In this document: positions 58,515-64,000 of the stretch, piece by piece | Layout of the letters: each line of letters opens with the position of its first letter | How positions within the stretch are numbered: the first letter of the stretch is position 1 | Position numbers and translations under genes: made by a program | The notes under the pieces: model-generated | Told to the model about the DNA's origin: nothing | Database searches by the model: none | The model's input: the letters and a program-made list of their open reading frames with translations, nothing else | Assembly: GCA_016342595.1 (NCBI GenBank) | Contig: JAEINY010000003.1 | Span: 1-64,000 of the forward strand | Length of the DNA: 64,000 nt | Source of the DNA: Marinilabiliaceae bacterium | GTDB taxonomy: Bacteria; Bacteroidota; Bacteroidia; Bacteroidales; Marinilabiliaceae | Direction of reading: 5' to 3'

Positions 58515-59534
58515 ATGAGTGTGATAATATTAGGCATAGAATCATCATGTGATGACACATCAGCGGCAGTAATAAAAGATGAAGTCATCTTATCAAATGT
58601 TGTAGCCAATCAGGATGTTCATCAGGCGTATGGGGGGGTGGTTCCGGAATTAGCATCCAGGGCACATCAGCAAAATATCATTCCGGTGGTAGATAAGGCC
58701 ATACATGATGCAGGTATCACAAAAGATCAGATTGCTGCCATTGCATTTACGCGAGGGCCTGGTTTAATGGGATCTTTATTGGTTGGTACATCCTTTGCAA
58801 AAGGGTTTGCGTTAGCAAATGATTTACCACTTATTGAAGTGAACCATCTTCATGCCCATGTGTTGGCTCATTTTATTAAAGAAGATGAGCAAGATGCGAA
58901 TCAACCGAAGTTTCCATTTTTGTGTTTGCTGGTATCGGGAGGAAATAGCCAAATCGTATTGGTGCGTGATCATTTAAATATGGAGATTATTGGTCAGACG
59001 ATTGATGATGCTGCCGGTGAGGCGTTTGATAAATGCGCCAAGGTTATGGGATTACCTTACCCTGGTGGGCCTTTAATTGATAAGCTTGCTGCAGAAGGCA
59101 ATCCGGATATGTTTTCTTTCAGCAAACCAAATATTCCGGATTACAATTATAGTTTTAGTGGATTAAAAACATCTTTTTTATACTTCTTAAGAGATGAGTT
59201 AAAAAAAGACACTGATTTTATAGAAAAGAACAAAAAGGATATTTGTGCCTCCTTACAAAAGACCATTATTGATGTTTTAATGAAAAAACTAATTTTGGCT
59301 GCTAAAGATACAGGAATTAAGGAGGTTGCGTTGGCTGGCGGTGTTTCCGCCAATACGGGATTGAGAGATCGGTTAACCAATTTGGCAGATGAATTGGGAT
59401 GGAAAACCTATATACCAAAGTTTGCATATACTACTGATAATGCAGCCATGATTGCGATTAACGGATACTATAAGTATCTTAATAGGGAGTTTGTGAATCA
59501 AGAGGTGGCACCATTTGCACGTTTGGTGTTTTAA
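58515..59534 (+). CDS. tsaD: tRNA t6A37 threonylcarbamoyltransferase
   Basis: 339 residues, ASKHA fold. The metal ligands H111 and H115 are in HLHAHVLAHF. The start GIESSCDDTSAAVI and the glycine loops LVSGGNSQIVLV and ALAGGVSANTGLR are typical. It transfers the threonylcarbamoyl group to A37 of ANN-decoding tRNAs and is essential in most bacteria. It is divergent from tamB. Confidence 0.98.
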   Translation: MSVIILGIESSCDDTSAAVIKDEVILSNVVANQDVHQAYGGVVPELASRAHQQNIIPVVDKAIHDAGITKDQIAAIAFTRGPGLMGSLLVGTSFAKGFALANDLPLIEVNHLHAHVLAHFIKEDEQDANQPKFPFLCLLVSGGNSQIVLVRDHLNMEIIGQTIDDAAGEAFDKCAKVMGLPYPGGPLIDKLAAEGNPDMFSFSKPNIPDYNYSFSGLKTSFLYFLRDELKKDTDFIEKNKKDICASLQKTIIDVLMKKLILAAKDTGIKEVALAGGVSANTGLRDRLTNLADELGWKTYIPKFAYTTDNAAMIAINGYYKYLNREFVNQEVAPFARLVF

Positions 59535-59661: not shown

Positions 59662-59946
59662 GTGGGAGAACAGTTTTACAAAAGATCAAAAGGATTTGTT
59701 GAAAAGAAAATAGGTGATGATCTGGTTTTAGTTCCATTAGCCAACTCCGTTGTGCAGATGGAAAAGGTGTTTTCGTTAAATGAATTAGGAACGTTTGTTT
59801 ACAGCTTAATGGAAAAGTGTATATCGGCAGATGAATTATTGCGTAATATTGTGAGTCAATTTGATGTGTCGAAAGAAGAAGCGAAAGGTGATTTGAACAC
59901 TTTTTTATCTGAAGCTGTTAATAATAAAATTATTGAGGTTTATTAA
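59662..59946 (+). CDS. PqqD-like peptide-recognition protein
   Basis: 94 residues from a GTG at 59662. The order of beta strands then helices (VLVPLANSVVQMEKVFSLNE, GTFVYSLMEKC, and a final three-helix part with ADELLRNIVSQFDV) is that of PqqD proteins, the RiPP recognition element fold that binds leader peptides and presents them to modifying enzymes. The conserved L-N-E-x-G-x-x-V core is intact. First gene of a five-gene cassette; the candidate precursor peptide starts 19 nt after its stop. Confidence 0.88.
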   Translation: MGEQFYKRSKGFVEKKIGDDLVLVPLANSVVQMEKVFSLNELGTFVYSLMEKCISADELLRNIVSQFDVSKEEAKGDLNTFLSEAVNNKIIEVY

Positions 59947-59965: not shown

Positions 59966-60190
59966 ATGAGTTTGAAGCGTAAATATAGTGCCCCGAAAAT
60001 TAATGTTCATTCATTGGATAAAGAGATTTGTTTGGTGATGGCTTCTGATGCACCAACTGATCCTACTAAAGATCCTGATAGTGAATGGTCATCAGCTCCT
60101 TCTGCATCTGAAAGTCCGGCTGAATCTTCGGGATTGAAAAGGTCTGATTATCCCTTTGGAGGTGATAAACCGGATTATAGCAATATGTAA
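59966..60190 (+). CDS. Candidate precursor peptide (Ser/Pro/Asp-rich)
   Basis: 74 residues from the ATG at 59966; an upstream in-frame TTG at 59933 lies inside the pqqD-like gene and is unlikely. It starts MSLKRKYSAPKINVHSLDKE, a leader-like segment with alternating basic and aliphatic residues. A low-complexity core follows (about 26-57) rich in Ser, Pro, Asp, Glu and Ala, and the tail is DYPFGGDKPDYSNM. There is no signal peptide and no Cys after residue 22. Its place between a PqqD-like protein and an HPr-kinase-like protein makes it a plausible modified peptide. Not recognised as a known family. Confidence 0.75.
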   Translation: MSLKRKYSAPKINVHSLDKEICLVMASDAPTDPTKDPDSEWSSAPSASESPAESSGLKRSDYPFGGDKPDYSNM

Positions 60191-60201
60191 TTACTAATTG
60201 G

Positions 60202-61095
60202 ATGAATCAATCCAGATTTTACGATATAGGGGGCTTGATGATAGAGGTGATTTATCAAAGCCCTTTTTTAGTGTTTGATCCTCGGGGTGGTGCTGTGGGG
60301 TTTGAGGAGTGTGAAAAATCTTCCCAATGGATTATTAATGTTGATCATCTGGCAAATATAGACCTTTCGGATTCACATGTATTATTTGAGGGGGTTCGGG
60401 AATTTCAAGCTAATATCCCATATAAATGGAGTATCCACTTAATTGATGGTTTTCGAACCATTTTTTTTGAGTTCGAGAATCATCACCATATAAAAAGAGG
60501 AACTGCAGTTATTGATTACGATCAAACGACCGTTTCTATTAATTTGGAGCTTTTAGGAAATGAAATTTTTCCGCTTGATCCGTTTTTTCATCCGCTTGGG
60601 GTTTTAGTTTTGAACGAGATAATAAGTGATTCAAATGGATTTATGATTCATGCCTCGGGAGTGAATGATCACGGGAATGGTTATCTGTTTTCAGCGGTCT
60701 CAGGAACCGGGAAATCCACGATGGCTGACCTGTGGGCACAAAAGGGAGCTACTGTTATAAATGATGATCGCTTAATTGTTCGGTCTTCTGCAGGAGGAGA
60801 TTTTTTTATCTATAATACACCGATGCCTTATTATAGTGATGTTACAAAAAGTGCGCCTGTGAAAGCTTGCTTTTTATTAAAGCAAGCTACAGAGAACTAT
60901 ATTGCCAGACTAACTGAAATTCAAAGTGTTTTAGGAATGATGGGAAATTGTATACAGCACTTGTACAGTCAGTCACGGATTGAAAATCACATGATGTTGA
61001 TTCAAAATTTAGTTCAGCAATGCGATGTTTTTGAGGTTGGCTTTAAGCCAGATACTGATATTGTGGATCTTATTCGACAAGAGTTTGGACATTAG
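60202..61095 (+). CDS. HPr kinase/PEPCK-like serine kinase
   Basis: 297 residues. The C-terminal half holds the HPrK/P-type P-loop SAVSGTGKST (164-173), the preceding IHASGV (His150) and the Asp pair N187-D-D-R190. The N-terminal about 130 residues are a beta-rich domain specific to this group. It is not a true HPr kinase by context, since no pts genes are near. Relatives in lasso-peptide clusters phosphorylate a C-terminal Ser of the precursor. Here the preceding gene encodes a Ser-rich peptide. Its 3' end overlaps the next gene by 11 nt. Confidence 0.88.
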   Translation: MNQSRFYDIGGLMIEVIYQSPFLVFDPRGGAVGFEECEKSSQWIINVDHLANIDLSDSHVLFEGVREFQANIPYKWSIHLIDGFRTIFFEFENHHHIKRGTAVIDYDQTTVSINLELLGNEIFPLDPFFHPLGVLVLNEIISDSNGFMIHASGVNDHGNGYLFSAVSGTGKSTMADLWAQKGATVINDDRLIVRSSAGGDFFIYNTPMPYYSDVTKSAPVKACFLLKQATENYIARLTEIQSVLGMMGNCIQHLYSQSRIENHMMLIQNLVQQCDVFEVGFKPDTDIVDLIRQEFGH

Positions 61096-61525
61096 CAATT
61101 GGAGATCGATTGTAGCTCATTTATTAAATGAGGGGCGCGTTATTGAAATTCATGCCAGCGGATTTAGTATGTTCCCGTTATTAAGACCCGGTGATAAGCT
61201 TCAGATACAACCACAAAAAGGATCTTTCAAGTCAGGAGATATCATTGTTTTTGATCGGGGAGATGTTTTTGTCGCCCACCGTCTTATAGAGATTAGACAA
61301 GATCAGGTTATTTGCAAAGGTGATGGATTTGTTACTTATGATACTCCTATCGATCTTCAGCAAGTAGTTGGTAAGGTTACTCACCGTATTCGCAAGAAAG
61401 TCTCGGTCGATTTAAGTTCGAAGAGGTATGTGTGGTTTGCTAAAGTGATGCTTCGCTTTCCCCGGGTAATGGGATTATTTTTTAATTATACAGCCAGGGG
61501 ATACCATAAATTTTTCGTGGATTAA
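61085..61525 (+). CDS. S24/S26 family signal-peptidase-like protease
   Basis: 146 residues if started at the TTG at 61085, overlapping the kinase stop by 11 nt. The frame is open to an ATG at 61025, but those residues are shadow translation of the kinase C-terminus. Ser28 in ASGFSMFPLLRPGD is the nucleophile. FVAHRLIEI (His65) and CKGDGFVTYD (Asp80, Asp86) follow the Ser-His-Asp arrangement of SipW/ER-type signal peptidases rather than Ser-Lys. There is no strong N-terminal membrane anchor, unlike housekeeping LepB. It probably cleaves a cassette-specific substrate such as the peptide's leader. Confidence 0.82.
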   Translation: MDISNWRSIVAHLLNEGRVIEIHASGFSMFPLLRPGDKLQIQPQKGSFKSGDIIVFDRGDVFVAHRLIEIRQDQVICKGDGFVTYDTPIDLQQVVGKVTHRIRKKVSVDLSSKRYVWFAKVMLRFPRVMGLFFNYTARGYHKFFVD

Positions 61526-61606: not shown

Positions 61607-63394
61607 ATGGACTCAAGGTTTACGCGTACTATTTTTTATCTTCGGCAAGCAATGGCAATAGTTTATTACAGCTCGCCAAAGTGGACTTTCATTAATGTAA
61701 TAATTACCATCTTACGTGGGGCTCTTCCTCTTTTGCTTTTGTATGTTGTACAGCAAATTATAGATGTCGTAGGAGAATTTCTTTCACACTCTGGTCCCGT
61801 TGAAGATCACTACTCGATCTATTTCGCAGTTGGTTTAGGAGGTGTTTTTTTCTTTTTAAATGCTATTACCGGATCATTGGCCACCTTGGTACGGGAGCGC
61901 CAATCCTATAAAGTAAATGATTATATTCAAAATATAATTCATGAGAAGACCGTTCGAATTCCCTATCGGTATTTTGAAGATCCCACTTACCAAAATATTT
62001 TCTACAGAGCGCTTACGGATGCGGCTTTTCGTCCTTCTCGTATTTTTTATGGCTTTCTGGGTGTCACTCAAAATATATTGACTCTTGTTTTAGTTTTTGC
62101 AGTCTTGGTGAGCTTGCATTGGGGAATGATTCCGTTCCTGATTGTAGCAGGAACACCAACCATTCTTTTTCGTCTGTATTACTCGAAGAAAATCTATTCT
62201 CTTCGAAAAGATCAGACAGAGGATGAGCGACGTGTTGGTTATTTTAATCAGTTGCTAACAGGAAAGAGTTTTGCTAAGGAGCTGAGGGTGTTTAACCTTG
62301 GCGAAACCTTTAAAGAACAGTACGAATCGATGCGTAATCAATTACGCGATAAGCAATGGAAATTGTTGGTGTCAAAAACAAGCTGGGAAATTATTGTTCA
62401 GATTATATCTACCTCAGGATTATTGTTGGTTTTTAGTTTTGTGGTGTATGAAGCGACTCAGGGTGCAATTACAAATGGATCAATGGCCATGTACTTTTTA
62501 GCTTTGCAGCGAGGTTATGCTGTGCTGCAGGAATTACTCAAGAGAATTTCAGCGCTGTATGAAGATAATTTGTTTTTAAAGAATTTTTTCGAGTTTGAAA
62601 AGATCGATGTTTCCGGAGCGAATGACAAAACAAATAGATTTCCAGCTGTTTTGAAAGAGGGAATATCTTTTAAAGATGTAGGTTTTAAATATCCGAATTC
62701 CGACCGTTGGATTTTTCGTCATGTTAATTTTTCCATTCCGGCACGAAAGACAGTGGCTTTGGTAGGTGCTAACGGAAGCGGGAAAACTACAATGGTGAAG
62801 TTATTGGCGGGTTTGTATGAACCTGTGGAGGGCGAAATTAAAGCGGATAATGTGAATTGGTCCTCGATTAACACTATTGACATAGCGAAGCATGTAAGTG
62901 TTATTTTTCAGGATTTTATGCTCTATAATGTATCGGCTGCCGATAATGTAAGGTTTGGCAATGTATCCAAGCCTTTTGATGAGAAGGAAGTAGTGGCGGC
63001 TGCAAAAAATGCAGGAATTCACGAACGGTTTATGGGTTTGGAAAATGGTTATGATACAGCTCTTGGTACGCTGTTTAAAGGGAGTGAGCAGCTCAGTCAG
63101 GGTGAATGGCAAAGGACAGCTTTGGCGCGCTCTTTTTATAATCCCTCTCAGGTAATTGTATTAGACGAGCCCACTAGTTCCCTGGATGCTTTCACAGAGG
63201 CTAGTTTAATTTCTCACTTTAGTGAAATAGCCAAAGATAGAACGGCAATAATTATTAGTCATCGGTTGTCTACCATTAAGTTGGCTGATGTAATTGTTGT
63301 GTTAGATGGAAAAGGTGTTGCGGAAGTGGGCGCGCCTGGGCAATTATTGGCTCAAAAAGGTATATTTTACCAAATGGTTGAGTCGTTAAAATAA
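61607..63394 (+). CDS. ABC exporter (fused membrane and ATPase domains)
   Basis: 595 residues: six membrane helices (about 20-310), then an ATPase domain with Walker A GANGSGKTT (387-395), signature LSQGEWQRTALAR, Walker B VIVLDEPTSSLD and switch His in ISHRLSTI. There is no N-terminal C39 peptidase domain, so leader removal would need the separate S24/S26 protease. Half-transporters of this plan export peptides or lipids as homodimers. It ends the cassette, and its stop abuts the convergent beta-barrel gene. Confidence 0.95.
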   Translation: MDSRFTRTIFYLRQAMAIVYYSSPKWTFINVIITILRGALPLLLLYVVQQIIDVVGEFLSHSGPVEDHYSIYFAVGLGGVFFFLNAITGSLATLVRERQSYKVNDYIQNIIHEKTVRIPYRYFEDPTYQNIFYRALTDAAFRPSRIFYGFLGVTQNILTLVLVFAVLVSLHWGMIPFLIVAGTPTILFRLYYSKKIYSLRKDQTEDERRVGYFNQLLTGKSFAKELRVFNLGETFKEQYESMRNQLRDKQWKLLVSKTSWEIIVQIISTSGLLLVFSFVVYEATQGAITNGSMAMYFLALQRGYAVLQELLKRISALYEDNLFLKNFFEFEKIDVSGANDKTNRFPAVLKEGISFKDVGFKYPNSDRWIFRHVNFSIPARKTVALVGANGSGKTTMVKLLAGLYEPVEGEIKADNVNWSSINTIDIAKHVSVIFQDFMLYNVSAADNVRFGNVSKPFDEKEVVAAAKNAGIHERFMGLENGYDTALGTLFKGSEQLSQGEWQRTALARSFYNPSQVIVLDEPTSSLDAFTEASLISHFSEIAKDRTAIIISHRLSTIKLADVIVVLDGKGVAEVGAPGQLLAQKGIFYQMVESLK

Positions 63395-64000
63395 CTAATT
63401 GATGATTAGAATTATCCCACCAAATATTCCCAGTGAAACAGGTTTGTAGGAATGATCTGAGTCGCCATTTACAGAGTTTAAAAAATATTTAAGTTTTGGC
63501 TCCAGTGAAAAACGGAATGTTTTGCCAATAGGTAGCTCTAATCCCAGCCCCAAAGAGCTACTAAAAACAAGAGGTTTGATGTTATCGGTTTCACCAATTT
63601 CAATTTCTGTTTTTCCATTGCTCAGGTAGACATCATTGCCGATCAGGAAGTTTGAGCTGATTCCTCCGGATAATGATACCGTAGGGAAACCGGAAATGAT
63701 TTTATACCTCACGCTGAGTGGTATTTCAATATATTCCATAGTTTGTTTGGTCTCAGCGGATGAGTTTTCTAATGGGAGTGAATGGGCATATATATTGGAT
63801 ATGTCTTCCTTCATGTTTCCCTGTGTGTAGTTGAGGTTGTTATTATCCAGGTGGATTTGGCCAATCGAGTTATTGAGCGATATTTGCTGTAGAATATGTG
63901 TTTCGTTTGCACTTGATGAAAGTTTATTTGGGGAATAGCTAAAATCGTTTTCAACAGTTTCGCCAATTTTCGAATAGTGAATACCCGTTTCAAAGCTCCA
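63395..64000 (-). CDS. Outer-membrane beta-barrel protein (5' end outside window)
   Basis: The frame is open from its stop at 63395 to the right edge, so the gene's start is missing; the ATG at 63814 is internal. The visible about 200 residues include repeated amphipathic strands (IEIPLSVRYKIISG, FSSSLGLGLELPIGKTFRFSL, EPKLKYFLNS), with a final strand SLGIFGGIILIIN, as in small OMP_b-brl/PorT-like barrels. A polar, Asn/Ser-rich stretch (63810-63930) would be an external loop or periplasmic insert. Relation to the convergent ABC cassette is unknown. Confidence 0.8.
   Translation of the reverse strand, partial: WSFETGIHYSKIGETVENDFSYSPNKLSSSANETHILQQISLNNSIGQIHLDNNNLNYTQGNMKEDISNIYAHSLPLENSSAETKQTMEYIEIPLSVRYKIISGFPTVSLSGGISSNFLIGNDVYLSNGKTEIEIGETDNIKPLVFSSSLGLGLELPIGKTFRFSLEPKLKYFLNSVNGDSDHSYKPVSLGIFGGIILIIN

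Follow-up and report, generated by a model that had tools for sequence, protein, structure and literature searches.

The 64,000-nucleotide stretch of Marinilabiliaceae DNA analysed here (the window) contains an operon in which tsaD (starting at 58515) is followed by a gene for a PqqD-type RRE protein (59662), a short peptide gene, a gene for an HprK-like kinase (60202), one for an S26-type protease (about 61076), and one for an ABC exporter (61607). The peptide ORF (59966..60190, + strand) starts with an ATG at 59966, stops at 60188-60190, and encodes 74 amino acids. Upstream of tsaD lies a divergent gene for a TamB-like protein (PF04357; 53985-58379), and in relatives long ORFs of comparable length (about 1480-1510 aa) recur divergently beside tsaD. 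At the other end, an outer-membrane beta-barrel protein (PF13568) is encoded at 63395-64000, convergent with the ABC exporter gene.

The RRE protein (59662..59946, + strand) has 94 residues, begins with a GTG codon, and is of the PqqD/lasso-B1 type. It matches PF05402 with an E-value of 7e-11, the sole PF05402 match in this genome, and the best match of its profile among solved structures is the lasso RRE TbiB1 (5v1u/5v1v; E 2e-9). With the model for lasso PqqD proteins (NF033536, lasso_PqqD_Bac) it scores 35.3 bits, which is under the curated cut-off of 80 bits. The 297-residue kinase (60202..61095, + strand) is assigned to the HprK/PEPCK fold by its structural model and its catalytic motif. 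The model has a pLDDT of 92, matches PEPCK with a Z score of 14.4, and matches HprK in Foldseek with an E-value of 5e-6. Its predicted catalytic residues, H150, G168, G170, K171, S172, D188, and D189, have the same spacing, offset by 2, as residues H148, G166, G168, K169, S170, D186, and D187 of the lasso peptide kinase BsfK (PMC10368454). Of the eight positions of the motif H-G-G-G-K-S-D-D, seven are present with unchanged spacing; the window kinase has Ala where the motif has its first Gly, a position at which Gly does occur in relatives. (Named relatives of the kinase are found in Carboxylicivirga, Labilibacter, Marinilabilia, Saccharicrinis, and Alkaliflexus.)

The protease gene (61076..61525, + strand; the exact start is uncertain and overlaps the end of the kinase gene) encodes a signal-peptidase-like protein that matches TIGR02228 (E 2e-9) and whose profile resembles Sec11 (E 1.5e-5). 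An invariant Ser48 (in GxSMxP) and an invariant His85 (in HR) place it with the Ser/His, Sec11/SipW-like S26 enzymes. The exporter (61607..63394, + strand) is a fused permease and ATPase (PF00664 and PF00005) that is conserved in the locus, so the exporter that the original prediction had placed downstream of the peptide is indeed encoded there. A C39 peptidase domain had no match in this exporter, and a GG motif was not found in the peptide leader; a GG-leader/PCAT bacteriocin system was ruled out on both grounds.

The 74-aa ORF is real and conserved rather than a chance ORF, since its homologues share both the start and the end of the peptide and lie within a conserved gene order. Nothing in Pfam, NCBIfam, or PHROGs matches it, and for want of an informative PHROGs match a phage origin was rejected. 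Neither an N-terminal secretion signal nor a T9SS C-terminal sorting domain was found on the peptide itself. Three segments can be distinguished. The leader comprises residues 1-27 (59966..60046, + strand), as judged from an information content that is high from Tyr-3 to Tyr+20 and then falls below 1 bit. Within it, residues 6-25 read KYSAPKINVHSLDKEICLVM, and Y7, P10, and I12 form a YxxPxI motif (59984..60001, + strand), a lasso-type leader motif that is recognised by RRE proteins; the related YxxPxL has been reported in lasso leaders (PMC10368454). The leader ends with Ser27 (60044..60046, + strand), an invariant Ser/Thr located 20 residues after Y7 and a candidate phosphorylation site. Residues 28-61 (60047..60148, + strand) form a variable Pro/Ser/acidic spacer of low conservation with no secondary structure in the model, and residues 62-74 (60149..60187, + strand) form a C-terminal motif, YPFGGDKPDYSNM, that is rich in aromatic residues, Gly, and Asp and is conserved among homologues. 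The AlphaFold model of the whole peptide has no secondary structure (pTM 0.20).

The peptide had originally been described, from its own letters, as a leader-like stretch of residues 1-25 followed by a Ser-rich, low-complexity core typical of a RiPP precursor, and the Ser cluster had been offered as a kinase substrate. Its composition is as described: nine Ser lie within residues 26-57 (at 27, 39, 42, 43, 46, 48, 50, 54, and 55), the tail is aromatic/Gly/Asp, and a secretion signal is lacking. Alignment of homologues, the check that had been proposed, reveals a conserved N-terminal part, a variable segment, and a conserved Ser/Thr at the leader border; the uniform conservation and folded domain that would have argued against a precursor were not seen, the model being unstructured. 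Two amendments follow from the alignment. The leader exists, but its conservation extends to about residue 27, and the bipartite layout holds for the leader and the poorly conserved spacer but not for the tail, which is a conserved motif instead of part of a variable core. Like RiPP precursors in general, the peptide has a conserved leader ahead of a variable segment and is encoded beside an RRE and a putative modifying enzyme; we regard it with high confidence as the precursor of an RRE-guided system.

Among 98 distinct peptides (92 without near-duplicates), the leader consensus is [KR][KR]xYxxPx[ILV]xxxx[IL]DxxIxLxMx[ST]. The YxxPx[IL] motif and an Asp at Tyr+11 are present in all 98, an invariance that is expected because Y, P, and D partly served to register the sequences. 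A hydroxyl residue is also found at Tyr+20 in 98 of the 98 (Ser in 64 and Thr in 34; S27 in the window peptide); this column lies outside the registering pattern, although it was included in the profile that collected the homologues, so that some selection is possible, and no exceptions were found. (An apparent exception in one peptide, L044, was due to a mis-registered Tyr and became a Ser once re-registered; two others from outside the Marinilabiliaceae, L282 and L294, look by eye to be likewise mis-registered.) Ser and Thr exchange freely at Tyr+20, and the Ser at Tyr+15 is often replaced by C, V, L, or A. The C-terminus reads (N/Y)PFGG(D/S/G)xPDYxxM in homologues encoded beside a kinase gene and ENPFxE in peptides of an orphan class, which are encoded elsewhere.

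The spacers of the 98 peptides contain on average about 20% Pro, 16% Asp/Glu, and 11% Ser. At 26%, the spacer of the window peptide has the second highest Ser content of the 98, which makes the Ser cluster a feature peculiar to this copy. A conserved phospho-cluster was rejected, as spacer Ser content is lineage specific. What survives of the kinase-substrate idea is its general sense, which is plausible and has gained a specific site in the Ser/Thr at position 27. The residue that BsfK phosphorylates in its precursor is Ser3, which lies 19 residues past the Tyr of YxxPxL; the enzyme is accelerated by its RRE, BsfB1, and accepts Thr but not Tyr (PMC10368454). The invariant Ser/Thr at Tyr+20 is thus within one residue of the BsfK phosphosite at Tyr+19 (PMC10368454). 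From these parallels, the 74-aa peptide is probably phosphorylated by the neighbouring HprK-like kinase, and S27 is, by a modest preference, the site at which this would occur.

Searching with the single sequence detected peptide homologues in 34 of 61 related genomes. Profile searches of 71 Marinilabiliaceae genomes found the kinase in 69, almost always once, and the peptides in 63, with one to five in each. (One genome, G036, is the only family genome listed with two kinases, at C1:381117-381989 and 2218421-2219293, each with its own peptide and with a nearby protein carrying the T9SS-associated module described below.) The order tsaD-pqqD-peptide-hprK-S26-ABC is kept in many genera of the Marinilabiliaceae, within the Bacteroidales. 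In some loci S26 and ABC lie outside the operon; at least S26 has then been relocated elsewhere in the genome, and it is still encoded in 14 of the 15 genomes tested. Such reduced loci keep the RRE, peptide, and kinase genes together. In other loci pqqD directly adjoins hprK with no peptide between, which indicates that peptides are encoded elsewhere and act in trans. Across 295 Bacteroidales genomes, with kinase presence scored at E <=5e-30, the kinase is found in 26, the peptide in 27, and both in 23 (Fisher p 4e-27, a value that overstates the evidence because related genomes are treated as independent; the positives come from many different families). Against a strict coupling, a few genomes (G158, G197, G270, G324, and G030) have peptides and no detected kinase, although their assemblies are incomplete.

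The original prediction did not cover the sister peptides that other parts of the genome encode, nor the link of these peptides to surface proteins of the type IX secretion system (T9SS). Most of these orphan peptides start 16-50 nt downstream of a gene for a large secreted protein, in apparent operons. Among the 55 peptides that have an upstream ORF of at least 550 aa on the same strand, the upstream gene ends with the T9SS type A sorting domain (TIGR04183) in 46; the background is 18-74 such genes per genome. In a separate check outside the Marinilabiliaceae, 15 of 18 upstream genes (two of the 18 being kinase loci) have TIGR04183, and in two more distant kinase loci (L118 and L123) a T9SS protein is encoded directly upstream of pqqD. 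The T9SS proteins beside peptides also share a C-terminal module that precedes the sorting domain. In nine genomes, each of the 10 strong matches to this module directly precedes a class-B peptide, a result that speaks for specificity rather than giving an unbiased rate, because the module profile was derived from proteins that adjoin peptides. Among the weaker matches, giant T9SS-like proteins predominate, and several of these are encoded beside kinase loci. When four complete or nearly complete genomes are considered, 10 of their 11 peptides are no more than about 15 kb away from a module protein; the expectation for 20 kb is 2-8% per peptide. The sister peptides are therefore likely to be functional partners of T9SS proteins, a partnership whose mechanism is inferred, and their position beside surface-exported proteins suggests a surface or signalling system that has not been described before.

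The window peptide itself has no adjacent T9SS gene, and its paralogue on another contig of the same genome (C71; L032:2642-2836) has one. This second peptide, MNSSKRQYTKPQIRAHRIDQSICLVMASES...NPFENNPFEGE, is encoded 37 nt downstream of a gene for a Big_5 protein with a T9SS tail. A third class of peptides (L198, L200, L201, L211, L214, and L216) has the same leader and a Gly-rich core (KPPWSGGGGKPP and similar), and mostly lacks a T9SS gene immediately upstream. Peptides that lie downstream of ordinary genes (L066:6040-6264, after a purF-like gene, and L218) are exceptions to the T9SS rule. Giant ORFs of more than 2000 aa occur beside some peptide or kinase loci; two of these (L061:7828-15000 and L042:8519-15001) have no Pfam domain, and two others (L104:7817-14662 and L119:7820-14734) match the T9SS-associated module.

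Taken together, these observations are best explained, with moderate confidence, by an RRE-guided phosphopeptide and export system that is partnered with T9SS surface proteins. Sequence and fold comparisons establish the conservation of leader, hydroxyl, and tail, the family and active site of the kinase, the family of the RRE, the gene order, the co-occurrence, and the T9SS adjacency; the steps from leader binding to a physical partnership are inferred. In this model, the PqqD-like RRE would bind the leader (YxxPxI...D..I) and present the peptide to the HprK-like kinase, which would then phosphorylate the single invariant Ser/Thr at the end of the leader (S27 in the window peptide). The S26-type Ser/His protease would probably trim the peptide next, and the ABC transporter would export it to the periplasm. 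The same machinery would also act in trans on the sister peptides, which are encoded beside large T9SS-exported surface proteins sharing the C-terminal module and probably function together with them. A more specific version, to which we give somewhat less than an even chance, is that one RRE-guided kinase locus phosphorylates several scattered peptides, each produced with and dedicated to a module-bearing T9SS surface protein, and that phosphopeptides and cargo cooperate on the cell surface.

The chief rival concerns the invariant Ser/Thr. Together with the hydrophobic run before it, this residue might be the cleavage site of the S26 protease, the kinase targeting a spacer Ser, the tail, or something else. 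The hydrophobic ISLVM followed by a small residue does resemble a short signal-peptidase site, and the S26 gene is retained in nearly every genome tested even when it has left the operon; since S26 is present in almost all genomes, the loci that lack it do not tell a kinase site at S27 from an S26 cleavage site there. Signal peptidase sites do not usually have Thr at P1, however, and a third of the peptides have Thr at this position; furthermore, reduced loci retain the RRE, peptide, and kinase genes without S26 and ABC. Cleavage at this residue, with phosphorylation elsewhere, is on balance unlikely. Less probable still is that the conserved C-terminus (PFGGDxPDY or ENPFxE) is a mature secreted signal or bacteriocin freed by proteolysis, with the kinase having a regulatory or immunity-related role. 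The C-terminal motif is conserved across genera where the spacer is not, and the operon encodes both an exporter and a protease; yet nearly all genomes of the family have the system, with a single kinase each, unlike sporadic bacteriocins, and in peptides from other families the leader and the Ser/Thr persist as the C-terminal motif weakens.

Two further readings are highly improbable. The peptide could serve T9SS proteins as a small regulator or chaperone without ever being modified, its leader motif being coincidental. The position of most orphans a few tens of nucleotides downstream of T9SS genes is compatible with this, but the window peptide and many others lie between RRE and kinase genes, and across the Bacteroidales the presence of the peptide follows that of the kinase. 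Marginally the least probable of all is a conventional lasso peptide with a tailoring kinase, the protease and cyclase being encoded elsewhere in the genome. Two lasso hallmarks are found here, a discrete B1-type RRE (TbiB1, E 2e-9) and YxxPx[IL] (98 of 98, with Y and P used in registering), and an HprK-like kinase and an ABC exporter are also present in the bsf lasso cluster (PMC10368454). Nevertheless, the lasso B2 protease (PF13471) is absent from this genome and from 22 other sampled genomes of the family, although the same search did detect lasso B2 in two genomes of other families. In addition, the operon has no asparagine-synthase-like cyclase, for which the conserved order leaves no room, and the residue that would open the core, provided that the lasso register applies, is mostly V, I, M, or L rather than Gly or Ala. 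Because B2 is absent from the genome and the cyclase from the operon, this is not a lasso cluster.

The RRE-guided phosphopeptide system proposed here can be compared with several known ones. HprK-related kinase A/B and ScmC systems (TIGR04352, TIGR04355, TIGR04249) likewise have an HprK-like kinase beside a PqqD-like protein. Equivalog membership was rejected for the window kinase, which scores 20, 31, and 35 bits against cut-offs of 200, 200, and 125. The closest comparison is with the kinase-bearing lasso clusters, namely bsf of Bradymonas sediminis, paeninodin pade, thco, and psm (PMC10368454; PMC9266682). As in those clusters, there is a separate PqqD-type RRE, a leader with YxxPx[IL], an HprK-like kinase whose catalytic residues and their spacing agree, and an ABC exporter, and the RRE is expected to speed the kinase (PMC10368454; PMC9266682). 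Unlike them, the present system lacks a lasso core and a cyclase at its locus, and B2 is missing from the genome; its protease is of the S26 type, one enzyme locus serves several scattered peptides, these peptides are T9SS-linked, and the system is near-universal in its family. It works like the RRE-kinase part of the phosphorylated lasso clusters, yet it is not lasso. (HprK-like kinase genes also occur at two other loci. One from the Bryobacterales, L139:2643-8749, encodes two HprK-like kinases and PqqD-like, asparagine-synthase-like, and ATP-grasp proteins, and looks like a lasso-type cluster with kinases. Another, L138:5045-7546, has consecutive S26-like, radical-SAM-like, and HprK-like genes and represents a RiPP-like arrangement of a different type that includes a kinase.)

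In T9SS type A cargo (TIGR04183), the sorting domain is on the upstream neighbours of the sister peptides and not on the peptides. The literature search revealed neither small peptides that accompany T9SS cargo nor, in the open-access papers it covered, a description of this RRE-kinase-peptide system; subscription papers were outside its scope. In the RRE-Finder study, the discrete lasso RRE model retrieved almost 8,000 proteins, of which only about 4,000 co-occur with a protease and a cyclase; the remaining hits could not be assigned and were considered to be perhaps false positives, DNA-binding relatives, or members of unknown RiPP classes (PMC7470986). That paper makes no mention of kinases (PMC7470986). 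This system may be one answer to the thousands of lasso-type RREs that RRE-Finder found without lasso enzymes (PMC7470986).

If the model is correct, a lasso-type RRE can serve a kinase without lasso enzymes, and the candidate phosphorylation site named here is open to a single-experiment test. Because the system is near-universal in the family, its role would appear to be basic rather than that of an optional toxin. The consistent pairing with T9SS cargo would offer a starting point for studying how small peptides might serve the surface proteins of Bacteroidota as partners, cofactors, or signals.
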